From the NCBI RefSeq assembly GCF_904849725.1, contig NC_058522.1, positions 438,307,529-438,371,528 on the forward strand: a stretch of 64,000 bases of DNA, given 5' to 3'. The stretch's first letter is position 1; each line of letters starts with the position of its first letter. Below the pieces are notes generated by a model. It saw only the letters and a program-made list of their open reading frames with translations. It did not search any database and was not told where the DNA came from. Of the stretch, positions 1-12,327 are shown piece by piece. The translations under genes were made by a program, and so were the position numbers. Source of the DNA: Hordeum vulgare subsp. vulgare. Its lineage: Eukaryota; Streptophyta; Magnoliopsida; Poales; Poaceae.

Positions 1-1242
1 GTTGTCTTCAAGGTCTGGCACTTGAATAGGCCTGAACTTCTTCTTGGGAGGCCACGACCATTCAAAGTCTCGCTCAAAGTCCATTTCCTCAAGCTCAGTC
101 TGAGTCTTCAGATGTGCAAGTATATCCCAGGTGCGATCAAAAACCTCATGCAGATAGTGATGGATGAGCTTCACAGAGTTCTGTGTTTCAGTGAGGGTTT
201 TCACAATGGCACCAAACCGGCGTTTGACCCATTTGTGGTTGCGATCCACCTTCTAGTGAAGACTGAGGAGGATCTCTCTTGTATTCATCACGCGAGGAGG
301 AACGGGGCTTGCCGGACGAGTTTCAGTATCATCCCATGAGGAATAAGCTTCTGGCTCTCTGAACTGGCCATCAAGGGGCCTACTGCCTTCTTCAATCACA
401 GATTTTCCTTTGCCTTCAATGGACTCGAAAGTCTTCTTGTTGACCCGGATAGGAGGCATATAACCAACATGATTTTGGCACTCAGCGTGAAAGTTGATGC
501 CTGTCCTTGTCCTGATGAATCTCATGATCCATGGGGCATATATCTTGTGATCAAAAGGACACATAGCATTGTCGGCCAAAGTCCTCAAGAAGAAGTCTTG
601 GATGTTGATAGGAATACCATGAATAATGTTGAAGAGGATATTCTTCATGAGGCCTACAACATCTTCTTCATCATCATGGCCTTTGATTGGTGCGAGCACA
701 CTGCAGAGGATTCTGTAGATAGACCTGGGTGTGTACTTGAGCTCGTGGACGAGGAAGGTTGTTCTCAGAGATTTTCCTTGAGCCAAAGGCTTCATGAGGA
801 CTTCCATCATTCCATTTGGCAGCTCACGCTCACCATAAAGCTTCACAGCCTCATCTGAGGAAATTGGTACGGGCAGTTCTCTAAGGAGTTCAGTAGAAGG
901 AGCCTTGTAGTGAGTGTTTTGGGTCATCCAATCAAACACCCATGTGTTAATGTCTTCAGGGTTGCCAGATATGTGAAGAATGGCATAGAACTGAAGAATT
1001 AACTCGCTGTTCCAGTCAGATATGTCGGAGCACATTGGGAGTAAGCCTGCATCATGAAGGACACTGAGGACTGGCTCCAGGCACAGTATTGCTTCAAGCT
1101 CAACATGAGGAATATGCTTGTGCTGGAATATCTTGTTTCGTCCACAGAGCACAGAGGCATAGTAGTTCATCTGAGTCCTAGTCCAAAACTTCAGATGCCT
1201 CATTTGAGGCTTGTCATAGGGGTTCTCTCCGATGAAGTACAT
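1..1242 (-). pseudogene. Sirevirus third ORF, C-terminal globular region
   Basis: The frame runs from about 1300 down to base 1 and leaves the window. It is broken by one TAG at 253-255, after which the same frame continues (KVDRNHKWVKRRFG). It is joined by a frameshift to the upstream part of the same long protein. It looks folded rather than low-complexity: LKFWTRTQMNYYASVL near the start, and a middle part with YTPRSIYRILCSVL and IYAPWIMRFI. The arrangement loosely recalls the plant-retroelement proteins encoded outside gag-pol, sometimes called env-like, but I see no signal peptide or membrane segment in the visible part. No function can be assigned. Confidence 0.6.
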
Positions 1243-3623
1243 GCATTCTTCAAAGAAATTTTCTTTTTGAAACTTTGGACGCTTGGAGAACGGCTGACGC
1301 TGAACTGGCTGAAGATTTTGCTGAGGAATAGGAGGGGAGACAACAATAGCAGTCTATGGGTTGAGCACAAAAATGCATTGTCTTGGGCCGGTGCATTCTC
1401 TTCAGCATGTTCCTCAGGGTGAGGAATTTCAGCAGTTGGTACTTCAGGCTGAGGAGATTGCTCTGGCTGTGCTTCAGGCTGAGGAATTTCTGCTTCTTTC
1501 TCAGTTGGAGGAGTTGGATCAGCCTGTTCCTCATCTTGAGGATTCTGCTCAGAGTGTTGAATTTCATCAGCTTGAGGATTTTCAGTTTGTTCTTCCTCAG
1601 CTGGTTTGGTGGCAGAGGCAGTTTCATCAGCTGGTGCAGCTGATGCTTGAACATTTTCTGTTTGAGGATTGAAAGGTTGAGGATTGTCGTCTATCTGTAT
1701 TTCCTCATCAGTGTGTTCCTCAGAGGCAACATCTTTCATTTCCTCATCTTCCTTTTTCGCTGGATCATCAATGATGATTATTTCATAGGAAGGAGCGATA
1801 TTCAGTGGCACAGGGTCCAGAGGAGTAGTTTCCTCAAGTGCTTTGAAGCGCTTGGCCTTTGTTTCTTCTTCTGCTGAGGAGGCCTTTCTCTTCTTGGCTT
1901 CCTTCTCAGCAGCCCTGGTTTTCTTCACGTCTGATGCAGACGGAGTCATCTTCTTCACCATTGAAGCTTTTGGTGAAGGGGTTTTCTTGACAGATTCTTC
2001 AGCTGGTATTGAGGAACCAGCTGGAACAAAGTCATCAGCTTGCTGTGGCGAAGCAACTGGGTCAGGGGCAGTCTCATCAGCTGCAGCAAATTTATCAGCT
2101 GGAGTTTCCATGATGATTTCTTCAATGGCCGGTTCTTCAACACGGCGCTCTTGGTTTACTTCCTCAGCTTGAGGAGTTTCCTCATCATGAGGAGATTCAT
2201 CTGCTAGCTCCTCAATCAAGGGCTGAGGAGTTGGTGTTGGGGATGCGGCCTTTTTGTTGTAGTCATCAACAGCACTAGTGGCCAGCTTGATGAAATTGCT
2301 CTTGAGGCTTTTGCGATCTGACAACTTGGAGTACTTGTCAGTCAATTTCTTCAGCTCTGCCTGTGTTGACACCAGTGCATCAGGAGTTAATTTGAGGAGA
2401 TTCTGCTTGAGGAATTTCTCCTTTTTAATCTTTGCAACTTTGGCCTGCCTGGCCTGCTGTTCTTTCCACTTGGCTTCATTTATGAAAGTTGCCACCATGT
2501 GGCTGATGCCAGGGGGAAGTTTCAAGTCATCAATACGAGTGTTTGGGTCCTCATACCAGATGTTGATGTAGTCAAGGAGGACCTTGGGGTCCATGGCCAC
2601 AGAAATGGCACTGCCTGATGCTTGAGCTACTCTTTCCTGCTTGTTTCAGATGATGGCTTGCGGGGTTTGATCATCATATTCATCACTGTCATCTCATGCA
2701 GATGGGACGGTGATGATTTTGCTGGCGCTTGGCAAAGTTGCATGTTCAGCAGTTACCAAAGTCTTCGCAGGAGGTGGTGAAGACTTTGTCTCCGAGCTGG
2801 TTGCAGCTGGGAGTGAGGAGCTGGAGCTGGCGGTTGTAGGCTTCATGACCTGCTTCTGTACTGGTTTCTCTTGAGGCTTTGGTGTTGGAGCTGAGGATTT
2901 TGGTACTGAGGAGATTGGCGCTAATAGTTTTGGCGCTGATGGTTTTGGTGTTGAAGGTTTTGGTACTGAGGGTTTTGGTGCTGAGGGTTTTGTGACTGAG
3001 GCCTGAGCAGACTTATCTTGAGGCTTTGGAGCCCTTGGGTTTGATGGCACAGACTGCATTTGAGGAATTTCTGAGCCTGAGTTTTCTGCGGCACAGGAAG
3101 TAGCAGCACCTGAGGCAGCAGCTGAGGATTCATTGAATTTCCTCACTGCAGCTTCTGCCTGCTTCTTGAGCTTAGCCAGATGCTTTTCCTTCTCATCTGG
3201 ATAGTCATCAATGGTCTTGAGGCTTGAGGGATGTGCTACTTGATGATCCTCAAGTGGGGCTCGTCTGCCAGGGCGCTTCAGAGCGAATTTCTTCGCATAC
3301 TTGGCAGTCACAAACCTGTATTCCTTCCATTCCTTCGCCCATCGGTGTTCAATCTTCTGCAGCCGTATCTTCCTCTTGGCCATTGTCTCATTTTCATCAG
3401 GCGTGCAATAGTCCAAGTAAATATCCTCAGGGATATCCACAGCTGTGTTTTGCTCAAGTTTCTTTCCTCCCTTCTGTTTTCTGTCATCCTCCATTTTCTT
3501 CAGTTGAGGATTTTGCTGATGAGTTTGAACTCTTGAGGATTCTGATGAGCCTGGAAGAGTTTCTTTCAGAAACGCTGCAAATGAGTTAATGTGATGAGAA
3601 CCAAGAGATTCATCAGCTGACAT
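1243..3623 (-). pseudogene. Sirevirus third ORF, N-terminal and low-complexity region
   Basis: The frame begins with an ATG at 3623, 8 bases after a strong 3' splice-site consensus. Residues 1-180 are charged and coiled-coil-like (RKIRLQKIEHRWAKEWKEYR). A proline-rich run of KPSAPKPSVPKPSTPK type follows (2921-3010), then Ser/Ala-rich sequence. Two in-frame TGA codons (2694-2696 and 2646-2648) interrupt it, and the same frame goes on through a second ordered segment near 2600 (MDPKVLLDYINIWYEDP) into a long Glu/Pro/Gln-rich tail with repeated EEP and HPEE units. A frameshift between about 1345 and 1243 leads into the C-terminal region. With that part the ancestral protein exceeded 1,100 residues. 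No known domain recognised. Confidence 0.6.
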
Positions 3624-3631
3624 GTGTGTAC

Positions 3632-3968
3632 CTATGAACAGAGTATAGTTGCGAGGAATTTGGAGAGGTCATATGCGTTCTCAGATTTGAGGAAAATGAA
3701 AAAGTTTGACAGTTTGAGGAATATAACCAGTGGTTGAGGAATTTGCCTAAGCATACTGTTCTTGGGTTCCAGAGTTGTACAGATCCGAAAATTCGCACAA
3801 TTGAGGAATCTCGTGAAAATCTTAGATGCTTAGCATAGTTCATCAGTGATGTGGTGATAGGCAGTGTTTGAGGAATCAAGTGCTTATCATTTCTTAAGGA
3901 AAAACAGATTTCACATACAAGATGTAAAATTTTAGATCTAACTTGCTGTAAAAATGGGATTTATTTAC
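3632..3968 (-). other. candidate 5'-UTR intron of the third ORF
   Basis: On the minus strand the leader reads TTCTAGG followed by GTAAATAA at 3968, a plausible donor. An AT-rich, T-rich stretch follows and ends in TTCATAG at 3632, a good acceptor, with the ATG 8 bases further on (3623). The predicted intron is 337 nt. The upstream exon is GC-rich and the intron AT-rich, as in ordinary plant genes. This is a prediction from splice consensus only. Confidence 0.45.
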
Positions 3969-4253
3969 CCTAGAAGGTGCGCACGAGGAACACAAAAAGG
4001 TGTGTGTGGAGAAGCTCTTCGGTCGCGTGTCCAATGCACCCTAACTCAGCGACACAGGACGTCTACGGCGGCGACGGACGAAGATGGTCCGACTCCGGCG
4101 TGGTTCCGGCGACGGAGAAGTCGAGGCAGTGAAGCTCTTCCTCACCGGCGACGAGACTACCAGCGATGGCGCTAGGGTTCGGTGGTGTATGCAGTGGCAG
4201 GAGAGCGATGGAGCGAAGAAGAGTATGCTGAGGGGGATAAGGACATATTTATA
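3969..4253 (-). promoter_or_regulatory. candidate internal promoter (TATA box) and leader exon for the third ORF
   Basis: A minus-strand TATAAATA lies at 4253-4246, about 1.9 kb 3' of the RT coding part and 0.7 kb past the RNase H stop. A GC-rich leader of gene-like composition follows, with an AACCCTAGCGCC segment typical of plant 5' UTRs, ending at the candidate splice donor at 3968. The surrounding element is AT-rich, so the block stands out by composition. It could be a promoter acquired from a host gene or one evolved inside the Sirevirus lineage. Confidence 0.5.
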
Positions 4254-4975
4254 GCCAAAAGTTACTGTTGGCGCGAAAATTTCGGACCAAACCGCCCCTG
4301 CCTCTTCGTCTCCGCAGGACACGTGTAGCTCCCGAATAGTGTGGTGGAGATAATGGAGATCGTGGTTATCCAATCATGGGAAGTGGGGTTGAGTTACTGT
4401 GTATTAAAGAAACATTTTTTGAAGATTTGAGGATTTTCGTTACAAAATCATCAGCTGACAAGGATGCAGTGAGGATTTTGAACAAAGTTTTAAGTAGAAC
4501 GCATATGAAGAATTGAATAGACTAGATGGGTATAGCATAGAGGTAAAGTAGGGTCCGATCACATTCACTTAGCAGAAATATCAACTTGAAGAAATAACAA
4601 TAAGTGAATGATGTTGAGGACTTTAAATCACAGTCTATCTAGTCAAATGAAAGTCATCAAGTATTTTTGAAGATTTTGTGATAAATCATCACAATGAAGA
4701 ACAGCTGTTTCGAAGAAAAACGCATTGTGAGGAACTTGATCATTTGAAGAAAAACAACTTGAGGAATTTCACATTGGGCGGTGGCGTGACCCACCATATA
4801 AGAATGTTGATTACACACGCCGTGTACAATTGTCGTAGGGCCCTGAGAATCAATTTCTTCGTTAATTTCTTCACATTCAGAGTGACATTCTTTATCAGTT
4901 GAAGAAAATCGATTCATCATGTATTGCACATCTAAGTCGTCAACTTTGCATAAGTGTTAGGATGTGTGCATGTTT
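4254..4975. other. non-coding spacer between pol and the third ORF
   Basis: AT-rich sequence between the RNase H stop and the internal TATA box. No reading frame is credible on either strand. It keeps the repeated TGAGGA and TGAAGA words that mark the whole Sirevirus. It would act as the upstream region of the candidate internal promoter. Confidence 0.5.
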
Positions 4976-5770
4976 TTACAAAACATTTGAAGATTCTAAG
5001 ATATTTAGCTCACACCGCAACTTGCAAAACCTTTTCTCATCCAAGGGCCTAGTGAAGATATCTGCCAGTTGATCATCAGTCTTCACATGGTCGATGAGGA
5101 TATTGCCCTTGAGGACATGGTCCCGAAGAAAATGATGACGAATCTGGATGTGCTTAGTCTTCGAGTGCTGTACTGGGTTGTATGCAATCTTGATAGCACT
5201 CTCATCGTCACAGTAGAGAGGCACATTCTTCATGTTGATGTCGTAGTCCTTGAGGGTTTGCTTCATCCATAGCAATTGAGCACAGCAAGAACCAGCAGCA
5301 ATGTACTCAGCTTCGGCAGTGGAGAGTGATACACAGTTCTGCTTCTTTGAGGACCAGCAAACTAGTGATCTTCCAAGGAAATGGCATGTGCAAGAAGTTG
5401 ACTTGCGATCCACACGGTCACCAGCATAGTCTGAGTCAGAATATCCTACCAGATGAAGATTGGAGCCCTTGGGATACCATAATCCTTGTGTTGGTGTGTG
5501 AGCTAAGTATCGAAGAATATGTTTCACAGCCTTACGGTGTAATTCCTTTGGTTTTGCTTGAAAACGTGCACACATGCAAACCCTAAGCATTATATGTGGC
5601 CTAGATGCACATAGATACAATAAAGAGCCAATCATAGAACGATATACCTGCTGATCGAAATCTTTACCATTTTCATCAGTGCCGAGGTGGCCGTTGGTAG
5701 GCATTGGAGTCTTGGCACCTTTGCATTCGTGCATGTCGAATTTCCTCAGAACATCCTTGAGGTATTTCTC
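4976..5770 (-). pseudogene. Sirevirus pol: C-terminal RT and RNase H
   Basis: The RNase H part cleaves the RNA of RNA-DNA hybrids during reverse transcription. The frame holds the copia signatures RSMIGSLLYL, SDSDYAGD, STSCTCHFLG and SLSTAEAEYIAA, then the KHIQIRHHFLRD block and a natural stop after LESSNVL. It is in the same frame as the upstream RT and is separated from it only by a TAG codon at 5771-5773. It is otherwise uninterrupted, which suggests a fairly recent insertion. Confidence 0.85.
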
Positions 5771-6772
5771 CTATGATATGAAGATTCCATTGTTTTGTTG
5801 ACGAATTTGAAGACCTAAGAAGAATTTCAGCTCCCCCATCATGGACATCTGATATTCTTCTCTCATCATGTAAGCAAATTCATCGCTGTATCGTTTGTCA
5901 GTACAGCCAAATATGATATCATCGACATATATTTGACACACAAATAGCTCATTATCATAGGATTTTGTGAAAAGAGTTGGATCGAGTGAACCAGGTTTGA
6001 AGCCTTTCTTCATGAGGAATTCCTTCAGTGTATCATACCATGCCCGAGGGGCTTGCTTGAGACCATAAAGAGCCTTTTTGAGTCTAAATACTTTGTCTGG
6101 ATTCTTTGGATCCTCAAAACCTGGGGGTTGAGCAACATATACTTCTTCCTCAAGCTTACCATTGAGGAATGCACTTTTCATATCCATTTGATATAAGATG
6201 ATGTTATGATGATTAGCATAAGCAAGTAGTATTCGAATAGCTTCAAGTCTAGCAACAGGTGCAAAAGTTTCATCGAAATCTATTCCTTCAACCTAGGTGT
6301 AGCCTTGGGCTACAAGTCGTGCCTTGTTCCTCACCACTTGACCGTCCTCATCTTGCTTGTTTCGGAAAATCCACTTGGTGCCGATGATATTGTGCTTGCG
6401 AGGATCTGGTCGTTTGACGAGCTCCCATACGTCATTCAGCTTGAATTGAAGAAGTTCTTCTTCCATAGCTTGGATCCACTCCGGTTCCAGAAAAGCCTCG
6501 GCAACTTTTGAGGGTTCTGTGATGGATACAAAGGAAAAATGCCCAAAAAAGTTAACTAAGTGTGAAGCTTTTGAGCAAGTGAGAGGACCTGGCGCGTTGA
6601 TGTGATTGAGGATTTTGTCAAGTTCTACTTCATTTGCAATCCTCGGATGAGCTGGTTGAGGATTTTGTCTGGGCTGAGGAAGTGGTGCTGGTGCAATTTC
6701 CTCACGAGCATCTTCTTGATTTTCATCAGTGATGGGGATCGTTTCTTCATCAATTTCCTCAATTTGGGACAA
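5771..6772 (-). pseudogene. Sirevirus pol: reverse transcriptase (copia RVT_2)
   Basis: Classic Ty1-copia RT motifs are present in order: [50 protein letters not shown] (motif A with its Asp), [17 protein letters not shown], and IYVDDIIFG with the intact YVDD active site. A TAG at 6293-6295 falls between GYT and VEG, and a second TAG (5771-5773) ends the segment. Both fit a Gln codon turned to stop. The link to integrase needs a one-base shift at about 6759-6772. Confidence 0.88.
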
Positions 6773-8150
6773 TGTCTTCAGTAGGCTTGAGCTTTATTGC
6801 TTCCTCAGGAGACAGCTTATCTGGATCAGAAGGTAATTGCTCTCTTTGCGAGCCATTAGTTTCATCGAACCGCACATCTACAGTCTCAACAACTTTGTTG
6901 TGATAGTTGTTGAATACTCTGTAAGTGTGCGAGTCCTTTCCATAACCGAGCATAAAACCTTCATGTGCCTTAGGTGCAGATTTTGAGCTATGGTGAGGAT
7001 CTCTAATCCAGCATTTTGCACCGAAGACTTTCAAATAACTTACATTGGGTTTCTTGTCAGTGAGGAGTTCATATGAGGTTTTCTTGAGGAATTTGTGAAG
7101 ATATACCCTGTTGATGATATGGCATGCAGTGTTGATTGCTTTAGGCCAAAAGCGACGAGGAGTCTGATATTCTTCAAGCATAGTTCTCGCCATTTCAACC
7201 AGAGTCTTGTTCTTCCTTTCGACGACACCATTCTGCGGAGGAGTATAAGGAGCAGATAATTCGTGAGTAATACCAAGTTCATCAAGATAATCATCAAGAC
7301 CAGTGTTTTTGAACTCGGTTCCATTATCACTCCTGATATGTTTGATCTTGATGCCAAAGTTCGTCGAGGCCCTTGAAGAAAATCGTTTGAAGATTTCCTG
7401 CACTTCAGTTTTATACACTATGATATGCACCCAAGTATATCTGGAATAATCATCAACTATGACGAAGCCATATAAAGATGCTGCATTGGTTAGTGTGGCA
7501 TAGTGAGTAGGTCCAAATAGATCCATATGAAGCAATTCGAATGGACGTGTAGTGGTCATGATAGTCTTAGAGGGATGCTTGGATCTGGTCATTTTCCCAG
7601 ATTCACAAGCACTGCCGAGATGATCCTTGAGGAATTTGACTGATTCGATGCCGATGACATGCTTCTTCTTCGCGAGCGTGTGCAAATTCCTCATGCCTGC
7701 ATGACCTAGTCTTCGGTGCGACAACCATCCTTCTGAGGTTTTTGCTAGTAAGCAAGTGGCTGGTTGAGGACCTGTGGAGAAATCAACAATGTACAAATCC
7801 CCTCTTCTTACACCTTCGAAGACTTTGGATCTGTCAGATTCCATAATGACTACACATCTATATCTACCAAAGATAACAATCATATCAAGATCACAAAGCA
7901 TTGAGACTGACATGAGGTTAAAACCAAGGGATTCAACAAGCATCACTTTGTCCATATGCCTATCCTTGGAAATAGCCACTTTGCCAAGTCCCAATACCTT
8001 GCTTTTACCTTTGTCAGCATATGTGATTTGCTTCAGAGGTGATGGAGTTAGTGGCATATTCATCAGTAAGCTTTTATCACCAGTCATGTGGTGTGTGCAG
8101 CCACTATCAAGAACCCACTCAGTATTCTTGGGTTTGTCATCCTGCAGATG
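6759..8150 (-). pseudogene. Sirevirus pol: aspartic protease, GAG-pre-integrase and integrase
   Basis: The protease core LDSGCTHHMTGD lies at about 8120-8085 (active-site Asp in DSG). The GAG-pre-integrase segment with GWLSHRRLGHAGMRNLHTLA follows. The integrase core keeps all three catalytic acidic positions: MDLFGP, IRSDNGTEF and NGVVERKNKTLVE (D, D, E). The integrase segment is a single open frame of 442 codons, so apart from the shift at its C-terminal end it is well preserved. The product would insert the element cDNA into chromosomes. Confidence 0.87.
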
Positions 8151-8365
8151 AATTAGTACAGCTTACCATCTCATATGCTTCAGTTTTGAAGAATATGATA
8201 CTAATTTCATCAGATCAGTAATTTCATCATAACAGAAATGTATGGACGTGTGAAATATTTCTATTTCATCAATCATTAGCTTGCGTCCTATCAAGCATTT
8301 CCTCAGGTCTCCAGCACATTCTTCAGATGATGATTTTCATCTGGAGACATGACCTGCAGAAGTGA

Positions 8366-9862
8366 TTAGTTCGATTTCCTCACCACCCACATCTGAAGGG
8401 GTGGCAAAGCATTCATCATCCTGCGAGCACCATATGAGAAAGGTGGCATTGAAGCCAATGCACTTCCCTTAACAGTAGGGGGGTTAAAGTACTCATATGA
8501 ATATGCAGAGAATTGGTTTGAGGATTTATGAACATAGTGATTTGAGGAGTAACGCTCATATTCATATTCCTTGTAGTTTCCCTGCATGTTAGACGCATTA
8601 GCATGCGTACGAGCATAGTTTTGACCAGTTGAGGATTTTGATCCTCTTGAAGACTTTGGTCCTCCTGAGGAATTTGATCTGGGGTTCAGATTCTTCAGTG
8701 GTGGTGTCATGAGGACATTCACCTGAAGATTTTCAAGACAGCTTTTGGGAACCCAGATTTTCCTCAGGAGAGGGCCATTCCTGCAGTTAGTTCCAACATA
8801 TCGAGCAAATACTTCACCAGATTGATTTTTGAACAGTTTATAGTTGGAGTCAAATGACTCATCTGAGGAATAGGATAATTCACATGAAAAGCCAGTTAGA
8901 TTGGATGGATCAAAAGGAGGCCCAGTAGCAGCAACCCATGAGGTTTTGGGATACTGCTCAGGTTTCCAATAAGATCCATCAGCATTTAATTTCCTCTCAA
9001 AGGCAATCCCTTCTTTCCTCGGGTTCCCGTTCAAGATCTGCTTTTTGAGCACATCACAAAGGGTTTGATGTCCTTTGAGGCTTTTGTATATGCCTGTCAC
9101 GTACAATTCCTTCAACCCTGCATTTTCATCACTAACATTTGTGTTTTCCTCAAGTGAGGAAATAGACACAGCAGGTGCAGTTGAAGAATTTGTAGCAATA
9201 GTAGCATTTGATGATTCTGGGGAGGAATTAGCAGTTTCACGTTCAATGCATTTAAGACATGGAGGAATGAATTCAACTTGACCAACGCTGATCTGTTGAG
9301 CTAGTAATGAATCATTTTCCATACGAAGATCATCATGAGATATCCTCAGCTTCTCAAGGTCAAGCTTCCTTTGAAGAAATTCATAGGAAAGCTTCTCATG
9401 ATCAGTGAGGAGTGTATCATAACGATCCTGAAGATTATCAAATCTAGACTGAAGACTTTTCACATCTTCAGTGAGGATTTGGGTAAGATTCATTTCATCA
9501 TTCAACAGATCATCACTTTTATCTAGCAGTTTCTGAAGCTTTTCCAGAGCAGTTTGTTGTTTAGTGGCAATGATAGCAAGTTTACTGTAACTGGGTTTCT
9601 TATAATTATCAGGTTCACAGTCACTTGAATCAGAGGAGGAGGCATTATTTGGTACCTTTGAACCTTTTGCCATGAAGCAAAAAGTTCGAGCGAAGTCATC
9701 AGCATAGGCATCAGTGCGGATGGTGCTATCATTTTCTTCAAGGTTGAAGATTGACTTGCTGATGAAAGTGGTTGCCAGTGCAAGACTAGCCTGTCCGGAT
9801 TTTGAGTCTTCATCAGAACCCTCTTCTTCATCACATTCCTCTAATTCTTCCTCGGAGTCCAT
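8366..9862 (-). pseudogene. Sirevirus gag C-terminal extension
   Basis: A 498-residue frame continuing gag in a different register. It begins with a very acidic stretch (DSEEELEECDEEE), then a long heptad-like coiled coil (LEKLQKLLDKSDDLLNDE to DLRMENDSLL), then a Ser/Asn/Tyr-rich tail. Sirevirus Gag proteins are unusually long and carry such an extension; in some family members it binds dynein light chain. The frame overlaps the N-terminal gag frame by about 20 bases, so one indel near 9850-9900 probably separates them. It stops just before the protease. Confidence 0.75.
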
Positions 9863-10911
9863 TTCCTTGCCAATAAGTGCCCAGCCTTTCTGAAACTAGT
9901 CTTCTTGTGCGATGAGGGCTTTGAAGATGAGGATTTTGAAGATTTCTTCTTCTTCTTTGAGTCATCAGAACTATCATCCTTGTATTTCTTCTTCTTTGAT
10001 TCCTTTCCCCAACGGGGACAATCAGCAATGTAATGACGTGATTTCTTGCACTTGTGACAGGTTCGTTTCTTGCAGTCCTCAGATGAAGATTCTGATTTCC
10101 TCATGTCTCTTCTTGAAGATTTACCGAACTGACCACGTCGTGTAAATCTCTGGAATTTCCTCACGAGCATTGCAAGCTCCTGTCCAAATTCTTCAGGGTC
10201 ACAAATGTTGTCATCTGTGTCTTCATCTTCAGATGAGGAAATTGCTCTAGCCTTCAGTGCACGTGGTCTGGAATAGCTTGGTACATATAGATCTCTCTTT
10301 TCTTCTAGCTGGAATTCATGAGTATTTAGCCTTTCTAGTATATCAACTGGATCAAGCATCTTGTAATCTGGTCTTTCTAGAATCATCAGAACTAAAGTAT
10401 CAAATAAAGAATCCAAAGATCTCAGCAATTTCTTCACAACTTCGTGATCAGTGATGTCTCGAGCTCCCAGTGCTTGCAGTTCATTTGATATGTGAGTGAG
10501 GCGATCAAAGGTGTCTTGGAAGCTTTCATTGTCATGTCTCTTGAAGCGATTGAAGATATTGCGAAGAATATCAACATGAGAGTCACTCTGGGTTGATACT
10601 CCTTCATTTACCTTGCACAGTCTCTCCCAGATCAGTGTTGCAGAGCCCAAAGCACTTACTCTTCCAAACTGGCCTGGGCTCAGATGGCCACAGATGATGT
10701 TCTTCGCTTGAGAACCGAGTTGCTTGAATTTCTTCACATCAGTAGCAGAGACACTGGCAGAGATGATGGGGACGCCATGTTCCACAATATACCAGAGATC
10801 ATTATCAATAGCTTGTAGATGCATTTGCATTTTGTTCTTCCAGAAGGGAAAGTTCTTTCCTTCATAGGTAGGACATGTTGCAATCACCTTAAACATGCCT
10901 GCAGTCGACAT
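9841..10911 (-). pseudogene. Sirevirus gag N-terminal part with zinc knuckle
   Basis: Begins with ATG at 10911, 54 bases after the primer binding site. Residues 1-210 match the copia UBN2-type Gag: FPFWKNKMQMHL, LWYIVEHGVP, a run containing IWERLCKVNEG, then QDTFDRLTHISNELQALGA. A CCHC knuckle (CHKCKKSRHYIADC, spacing C-2-C-4-H-4-C) is followed by a Lys/Ser-rich tail. The last residues, after SFRKAG, are out of register, which marks the frameshift. The product packages element RNA. Confidence 0.85.
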
Positions 10912-10964
10912 AACTAAAACTCCAGGTGGTTAAACCAAAATCACACAGAACAAGGGAGTACCTC

Positions 10965-10976
10965 GCTCTGATACCA
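10965..10976 (-). other. primer binding site (initiator Met-tRNA)
   Basis: On the minus strand TGGTATCAGAGC, complementary to the 3' end of plant initiator Met-tRNA, lies two bases inside the 5' LTR. It sets the LTR boundary at 10979 and the element orientation. Confidence 0.92.
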
Positions 10977-10978
10977 AT

Positions 10979-12308
10979 TGAAAGTGTGTTATATCGACTA
11001 GAGGGGGTGAATAGGAGATTTTTAGAATTTCATCACTGAGGAAATTCCTTTTGAGGAAATTCCTCACTGATGACTAACTTACAGCGGAAACAGTAAAGGA
11101 TCAGAAGTGCAAAGTTTCACAACAGTAGTTTTTCAGAGTGAAGAATGTGAAAACAGATTGCACAGTGAGCAGGCACGCAGAATACAGACCATCATAACTA
11201 ATGTGAAGAATTTGGGGTTGAGGAAATTCGGAGAAAGTCTTCAGCAAATTCTTCAGACAGTCACAGTGAAAGTCATCAACACATAATACGGGAAAGTAAA
11301 GAGTTGAGGAATTAGAACCCGTTTCTCAGTGAAGACAGTCGTTGATGACCCAGTTCCAACTGTTGTGACAGTCGTACATCTGGTTTGGAGTGGCTTGGTA
11401 TTGAAACAAAAGGACACACAGTCCCTACCGTATTCTCCTTGAGCTAAGGACACACAGTCCTCGCCCAACACTCGTGGTAAGTGTTCAGGGCAAACTTCCA
11501 AACCCTCACAAACTTGGTCACCCGGCGATCCACAATTGACTGCTGGAAAGCTCTAGACCATGACGCCTAACCGTCTGGAGGATGCACAGTCCTCGAAGGT
11601 AAAAGGCTTCAGTCCCACACAGGAACAACTTCTTCAGTGATGCTCAATCACTAGGTTTGGTTTGTGGTTTCGGTGGGTGGTGTATTTCCTCACTGATGAT
11701 TTACTCTCGAAGGCTCTGAGGAATTTGGGTTGCTCTTATGACAAGTGTCAGTTTCTAACGGAGCAGCCAACCAGCTAGTGGTTGTGGGGGTGGCTATTTA
11801 TAGCCTGGGAGCATCCCGACATGATTTGACACTAATGCCCTTAAATAATATGACCGTTGGAGTGGATAAGACCAGTGACTTGGCGTGGCTATCAAAACGG
11901 TCGGAACCCTCAACTGTGAGAGTCCTCATGTCACTCATATTCCTCACTTGAGGCTTTTGGTAGGATTAGGCTTGGGTTGAGCATCATGAGGAAATTCATT
12001 CCATAGTGTAACTTTGACCCCGTTTAACAGTACGGTGTTCCTATTACTCAAATGCGAAGAAAATAAAACATAAAGTGTAAATCTTCATGCTTCAAATTCT
12101 TCAGAGTGATTTTCTTCAGGAACCACCGGACTTCTCAATATCAGTATCTTCATGAGGAATATCAATTTCATCGCAGATTCCTCGCGATTCATTTCTTCAG
12201 CTTCAGACCAATTTCTTCAACTGAAGACATATATTTTATGGGTCGATATTATTCAAATATCTCAAACTCCTCAATGATTTATAGATCCTGTGTACACTCA
12301 CAAACACA
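10979..12308 (-). repeat. 5' LTR of the Sirevirus
   Basis: Bounded by TG at 10979 and CA at 12307-12308. The U3-side TATA box reads TATAAATAG on the minus strand (11802-11794). The transcript-side end has the run CTATTCACCCCCTCTAG before CGATATAACAC, as in related Triticeae Sireviruses. No protein is encoded. TGAGGA and TGAAGA words are very dense, and one CACCGGACT core is at about 12125. The LTR meets unrelated gypsy 3' sequence at 12309, with TTAGA as the expected target copy. Confidence 0.82.
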
Positions 12309-12327
12309 TTAGAGTAGTAAAATTCCT

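Follow-up and report, generated by a model that had tools for sequence, protein, structure and literature searches.

A candidate internal promoter and 5' untranslated intron ahead of the third open reading frame of a barley Sirevirus

Sireviruses can carry an additional open reading frame (ORF) after pol, and its expression and role are a question raised in print (PMC2829016, PMC6317226; these and all other papers are cited from excerpts of their text). An internal promoter for this frame, termed ENV, was hypothesised in 2002 (as cited there) and supported by CpG islands in 2010, with none conclusively identified (PMC2829016). A database paper of 2012 gives stop-codon suppression and an internal promoter as modes of expression (PMC3414828). 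A survey of 2019 found an extra ORF in 74% of the SIRE elements, sorted these frames into 19 dissimilar groups and for that reason doubted any function (PMC6317226), and according to a review of 2020 env-like genes are transcribed from the 5' long terminal repeat (LTR) (PMC7264820). The excerpts of PMC3485330 and PMC11963269 held nothing further on the expression of Sirevirus ORFs. Among the top-ranked open-licence titles and abstract beginnings, no description of a TATA box with an intron in the 5' untranslated region (UTR) ahead of a Sirevirus ORF was found. Here we analysed 64,000 nucleotides (nt) of barley DNA (Hordeum vulgare subsp. vulgare, NC_058522.1, positions 438,307,529 to 438,371,528; in the following the window), which hold a Sirevirus of about 14.4 kb with gag, pol and a third frame, ORF3, all on the minus strand. 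The comparison of its copies leans towards the region 4420-3600 (minus strand) being an old, maintained internal control region, with ORF3 expressed from its own promoter and with a spliced leader. The region offers a concrete, testable candidate for the internal promoter proposed in print (PMC2829016).

The candidate signals and the frame that they precede are the following.

4320..4325, minus strand: G-box-like CACGTG upstream of the TATA box, from the comparison of copies
4246..4253, minus strand: candidate TATA box TATAAATA, read from the sequence
3969..4221, minus strand: G+C- and CpG-rich leader, candidate exon 1 of the 5' UTR, its start placed about 30 nt past the TATA box
4168..4179, minus strand: telo-box-like AACCCTAGCGCC in the leader, read from the sequence
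3632..3968, minus strand: candidate 5' UTR intron of 337 nt, GT at 3968-3967 and AG at 3633-3632
3624..4975, minus strand: non-coding stretch from the pol stop to ORF3, 1,352 nt long, holding 26 ATGs and, counted in all three frames, 62 stops
3503..3821, minus strand: conserved tract of the intron 3' half and ORF3 codons 1-40, with nucleotide-level constraint
253..3623, minus strand: ORF3, about 1,120 codons, interrupted in the window copy, from its open pieces and relatives

On the minus strand the candidate donor lies between CTAGG and GTAAATAA and the candidate acceptor between TTCATAG and GTACACAC, with the ORF3 ATG (3623-3621) 8 nt past the acceptor. A sequence-only reading had named the TATA box, the leader, the donor, the 337-nt interval, the acceptor and the ATG, and each was recovered base for base in its place. 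The leader, described there as GC-rich, and the interval, described as AT-rich, measured 60.5% and 36.2% G+C, with CpG observed/expected ratios of 1.21 and 0.50. The leader has no ATG and the candidate intron has six. The motif TTNGATYTG, which resembles intron-enhancement motifs, occurs twice in the candidate intron when one mismatch is allowed, but also twice in the spacer. Expression of ORF3 by read-through or reinitiation from pol was considered and rejected as unlikely, given the 1,352 nt between them with 26 ATGs and stops in every frame.

The conservation of these signals was followed through copies of increasing distance. The genome searched comprised 4.21 Gb in 180 contigs. With positions 3600-4400 as the query, 5,820 first-look candidates were obtained, and the best 40 that were scored were the window and 39 others at 96-97% identity. 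In the family set read (L001-L008 and L011-L042, 40 rows including the window), TATAAATA was found in 38 of 40, the donor GT in all 40, the acceptor AG in 38 and the ORF3 ATG in all 40. By itself this family alignment, which had been suggested as a check on the TATA box and the splice sites, is weak evidence, because the copies are young, were chosen by their likeness to the same stretch and have 62-73% of their non-CpG columns invariant anyway. The 39 other copies read TTCACAG at the acceptor in 32 cases, TTCATAG as in the window in 5 and lack the AG in 2. Among these 39, the G-box CACGTGTC and the telo-box AACCCTAGC were each present in 36, and an E2F-like TTTTCGCGCCAA upstream of the TATA box was exact in 30; the latter was not kept in the 30 older copies described below.

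More distant copies were collected by a protein search with the relative P0141, in which 101 of 31,414 candidates were scored and 102 matches listed. From the listed matches, eleven copies with long open ORF3 frames were chosen (L073-L083; 606-1,173 codons by the count of the tool; the matched part is free of stops in seven and holds one to three in the other four). Eight of them span the control region and form a sister lineage, with leaders 80-85% identical to that of the window; L074 and L076 do not reach the region of the TATA box. The TATA box TATAAATA was present in all eight sister copies. The run GCTATAAATATGT was also invariant in all eight and was the longest unchanged run within 4276-3969, where only 2 of 297 12-mers were kept in 8/8 copies, both inside this run. 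The telo-box 12-mer AACCCTAGCGCC was found in 7/8 sister copies, and the G-box, as CACGTGTC or CACGTGCC, in three of the four sister-set copies that cover the site. Donor GT and acceptor AG were kept in 11/11 of the long-frame copies from other lineages, with the donor variants GTATAT in L080 and GTAATT in L079.

The oldest comparison used the best 30 loci of the P0141 search (L043-L072). All of them contain stops, and the branch that sets the window family apart from them has a length of 0.41 changes per site. In these decayed copies TATAAATA was identical in 14/30, a level reached by 24 of 880 background 8-mers, and GGGTAA was found in 19/30, a level reached by 27 of 882 background windows. 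The donor GT was present in 25 and the G-box, as CACATGTC or CACATGTT, in 15 of the 30. In 16/30 a TATA-like string lay between 588 and 622 nt ahead of the ATG. The candidate TATA box and donor are thus seen again at the corresponding sites of all three sets, the family, the sister and the older copies. Their conservation is beyond chance, and these two signals, at least, were in place before the older lineage diverged. A chance resemblance, or the relic of a captured host gene with ORF3 silent or expressed by rare leaky means, is improbable by this measure. TATA-like strings are indeed common, with nine occurrences of TATAAATA on both strands of the 64-kb window, and a looser TATA-like cluster lies near -1,000 (-986 to -1,015) in 8/30 older copies, with TA-repeat runs nearby in two more. 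Neither chance nor a relic accounts for a position and a sequence that are conserved across lineages, nor for a ratio of non-synonymous to synonymous divergence (dN/dS) of ORF3 below 0.5 against all 30 older loci.

The frame of more than 1,100 codons with defects announced by the sequence-only reading was found as three open pieces (3623-2694, 2600-1200 and 1242-253), and the window copy is therefore broken. At E up to 0.001, 77 relatives were obtained for the N-terminal and 104 for the C-terminal piece, and many of the close protein matches are from Hordeum vulgare. The N-terminal region is shown by 32 relatives. Of these, 25 start at the predicted methionine, and each of the seven that continue through the intron in the upstream direction reads SQVL-M or SQVQ-M. 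This is consistent with a conserved acceptor, where CAG and CAA are indistinguishable from the protein. Between the acceptor and the ATG there are 8 nt in family copies, mostly 7 nt in the older ones and, as judged from the protein, 6 nt in the seven upstream-extended relatives; the reading frame upstream of the ATG is therefore not kept.

For the N-terminal piece, dN/dS against the 30 older loci was 0.24-0.45, a rough value because the synonymous divergence (dS) of 0.97-2.01 is near saturation. Against L073-L080 it was 0.08-0.51 over 50-150 codons, and against five young family copies 0.39-0.66, with differences that mostly arose after insertion. Codon comparison thus gives signs of purifying selection on ORF3. 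The frame had been called env-like. No membrane-spanning stretch was found in eight relatives of the ORF3 pieces, where the best 19-residue hydropathy was 0.56-1.43 and the cut-off for a membrane span is about 1.6; 'env-like' is therefore a mere name for ORF3. The top value of the window itself, 1.66, seems on inspection by eye to fall past a frameshift. A Pfam scan of ORF3 gave nothing firm; Transposase_32 matched 1/21 C-terminal sequences at E 0.079 without reaching the curated cut-off. The predicted structure of the C-terminal piece had a mean predicted local distance difference test score (pLDDT) of 36.5, and a single scan of viral contigs, made with alignment A1, found zero relatives.

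Nucleotide divergence falls across the acceptor, from about 3821 to 3503. The identity of the sister copies was.93-.96 in the intron 3' half versus.78-.85 in the leader and the intron 5' half; a short piece of the promoter gave.78-.90. The p-distance of the older copies was.20-.33 in the conserved tract versus.33-.52, and the synonymous divergence was.34-.37 in ORF3 codons 1-40 versus.55-.83 in later codons. Our guess from this pattern is that the tract serves the control of splicing; recombination that homogenises 3503-3821 may be an alternative source of the low divergence. Two other explanations for the tract were rejected. An RNA structure had a fold z-score of -0.11, and the two Rfam matches considered for an intronic small RNA scored 19.9 and 15.5 bits with cut-offs of 50 and 48 and neither lies inside the tract.

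The tract bears on the way in which the acceptor would be used. The 3632 acceptor could serve RNA started in the LTR, by retrovirus-style splicing from a donor in the leader or in gag, with the TATA box and the local donor being secondary. Splicing like that of retroviral env has been reported for the barley element Bagy2 (PMC7264820), and the acceptor lies inside the conserved tract. Such splicing leaves unexplained that the only 12-mers kept in 8/8 sister copies within 4276-3969 sit in the TATA box, and it also leaves the conserved local donor unexplained. We regard it as unlikely.

Spliced copies were sought in the genome with a 32-nt probe of the spliced junction, allowing up to 3 mismatches on both strands. 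This probe found intronless copies at 0 places, versus 1,668 places (837 + 831) for the matching probe of the unspliced donor boundary. Both probes use the letters of the window and are informative for the window family rather than for older copies. RNA that was turned into new copies was therefore not spliced here. In 38 loci found through ORF3 and viewed at the acceptor, intron-like sequence stood ahead of the ATG, as judged by eye. The zero count is as expected if splicing were limited to an internal transcript without the primer-binding site (PBS) and the 5' LTR, and it argues against heavy splicing of the genomic RNA at 3968/3632. As a separate observation, the donor probe matched exactly three times in G000:C5:267833313-267858294, with a spacing of exactly 12,475 bases, which resembles a tandem array with shared LTRs.

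Several points weigh against an internal promoter with a spliced leader, in addition to the limits of the family counts and of the near-saturated dS given above. The absence of intronless copies would fit equally well with no splicing whatsoever. In the sister copies, two runs in the intron equal the invariant run at the TATA box in length (13 nt), and L079, a more distant member of the eleven, lacks a TATA box at the corresponding position. The lack of ATGs in the leader was discarded as evidence: the depletion was not significant in dinucleotide (P 0.28) or mononucleotide shuffles (P 0.09), and many other leaders have an ATG, namely one each in 13/40 of the family, where 27/40 have none, and in 3/5 of the fully covered sister leaders. 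The acceptor is the weakest part. Across the family and sister copies it is conserved, and in the older copies it does no better than a random dinucleotide: 11/30 have the AG at the aligned position, which is background, and of the remaining 19 copies five have it one base further on and 14 have neither. As regards the acceptor, the older copies thus count against constraint, unless they stem from lineages that gave up splicing before decaying. In many of them, on scattered branches, the acceptor G at 3632 has given way to C, T or A, with C and T appearing repeatedly.

These observations also bear on the case of a real promoter with an unused intron, in which the RNA from about 4220 would stay unspliced or the stretch would act as DNA (an enhancer or a CpG island) or as a signal in the genomic RNA. 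It would agree with the probe finding no spliced junction in the genome, and with older copies that keep the TATA box and the donor while the acceptor AG is at the background level. Unspliced RNA would, however, present three to seven intron ATGs ahead of ORF3, and both GT and AG were kept in all eleven long-frame copies of other lineages. We give this case little weight and consider it rather unlikely.

Returning to the preferred reading of an internal promoter and a spliced leader, the TATA promoter inside the Sirevirus would give rise to a short mRNA in sense orientation, beginning some 30 nt past the TATA box, at about 4220. A leader exon of about 250 nt would be spliced at 3968/3632, by which the AT-rich 5' UTR intron with its several upstream ATGs (six in the window copy) would be removed, and ribosomes could then arrive at the ATG of ORF3. 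Termination would be provided by the 3' LTR. The expression of ORF3 would be independent of the LTR-driven gag-pol RNA, which would have to retain the intron. We infer initiation, splicing, translation and termination of the ORF3 unit from the arrangement in the DNA. An autonomous transcription unit had been proposed for the locus before; the conservation of TATA box, donor, acceptor and ATG between lineages, the selection on ORF3 and the lack of a plausible read-through speak for it, and the autonomy itself stays a sequence-based proposal. More tentatively, Triticeae Sireviruses could hold a full host-style gene made of TATA promoter, leader exon, 5' UTR intron, ORF3 and 3' LTR terminator, a generalisation that we hold for possible without favouring it. 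The intron would then divide internally started RNA, which is spliced and translated, from LTR-started genomic RNA, which keeps it, perhaps by means of the tract of about 320 nt over the acceptor and the first 40 codons. For the question of what the Sirevirus ORF after pol does, the locus offers one such frame that shows signs of purifying selection and is preceded by a TATA box and a donor conserved across lineages and by a candidate acceptor kept in family and sister copies, each with its exact position; the donor boundary of the family matches at 1,668 places of the genome.

The remaining parts of the element were located as follows.

10979..12313, minus strand: 5' LTR, 1,335 nt, the first 60 nt missing relative to the 3' LTR
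L009 4958-6355, just beyond the edge of the window: 3' LTR, 1,398 nt, partner of the 5' LTR
10965..10976, minus strand: PBS TGGTATCAGAGC, read from the sequence
9841..10911, minus strand: gag, Pfam Retrotran_gag_2 with E 1.4e-20
4976..8087, minus strand: pol, split over several frames in the window copy, integrase and then reverse transcriptase

The integrase part of pol (8087-6759) matched the Pfam families rve, gag_pre-integrs and SH3, and RVT_2 was found with E 1.3e-54 in 6292-5774 and with E 3.9e-9 in 6793-6296. The last piece (5770-4976) had no family match in the Pfam scan and is assigned to RNase H by position only. The PBS TGGTATCAGAGC is presumably of the tRNA-Met type. The LTR pair differs by 33 substitutions across 1,320 ungapped aligned positions; with 1.3e-8 substitutions per site and year, a rate that we assume, the insertion would be roughly 1 million years old. 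The element is a Sirevirus, as the sequence-only reading had it, to judge by its copia domain order, PBS, AGGGGGAG polypurine octamers and size: Retrotran_gag_2, rve and RVT_2 follow in that sequence on the minus strand, and large size, long LTRs and a long linker are seen in the total of about 14.4 kb and the LTR of 1,398 nt. Sireviruses are described as having several AGGGGGAG ahead of the 3' LTR, with the start of the final one 10 bp away from the LTR (PMC2829016); here four precede the 3' LTR and the last begins 10 nt before TGTAAGTG.

Two further observations concern the element as a whole. At 12313/12314 the truncated 5' LTR, 60 nt short, meets unrelated sequence in a sharp junction. The heptamer TTCCTCA/TGAGGAA occurs 57 times versus 3.5 expected in nine element segments (about 11.7 kb, within 253-12313), in the LTR as well as in gag, pol, the intron and ORF3. 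It is found on either strand, and its hexamer cores do not keep to a single frame; in the remaining 51.6 kb of the window it occurs 11 times versus 9.9 expected.

Among known systems, foamy viruses have a second, internal promoter in env that drives regulatory 3' genes; these are animal retroviruses, and the likeness drawn here to the window element is one of layout. In plants, gene23 of the maize element Grande (Ty3/gypsy, Tat) lies as an accessory ORF between pol and the 3' LTR and has an internal promoter of its own (PMC7264820). It is antisense, whereas ORF3 is sense, lies in a copia element and has a candidate 5' UTR intron. Bagy2 of barley (Ty3/gypsy) has a sense third ORF with reported splicing; an internal promoter is unmentioned in the excerpt, which gives the 5' LTR as the promoter of env-like genes generally (PMC7264820). 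SIRE1 of soybean, whose env-like ORF is expressed by stop-codon suppression, is likewise a Sirevirus in which pol is followed by a third ORF in sense orientation. There a single stop codon parts pol from ENV (PMC2829016), whereas in the window element the two frames are 1,352 nt apart, with 62 stops when all three frames are counted. A likeness is also seen to Maximus and other ENV-containing Sireviruses, which share the PBS, the repeated polypurine octamer before the 3' LTR and a CpG-rich 5' side of the third ORF (PMC2829016). The printed size of Maximus (14.4 kb) and its LTR of 1.4 kb (Table 2, PMC2829016) match the window element, a likeness by lengths and not by sequence. Compared with the Maximus literature, the candidate TATA box, leader and intron are new specifics of the window element.

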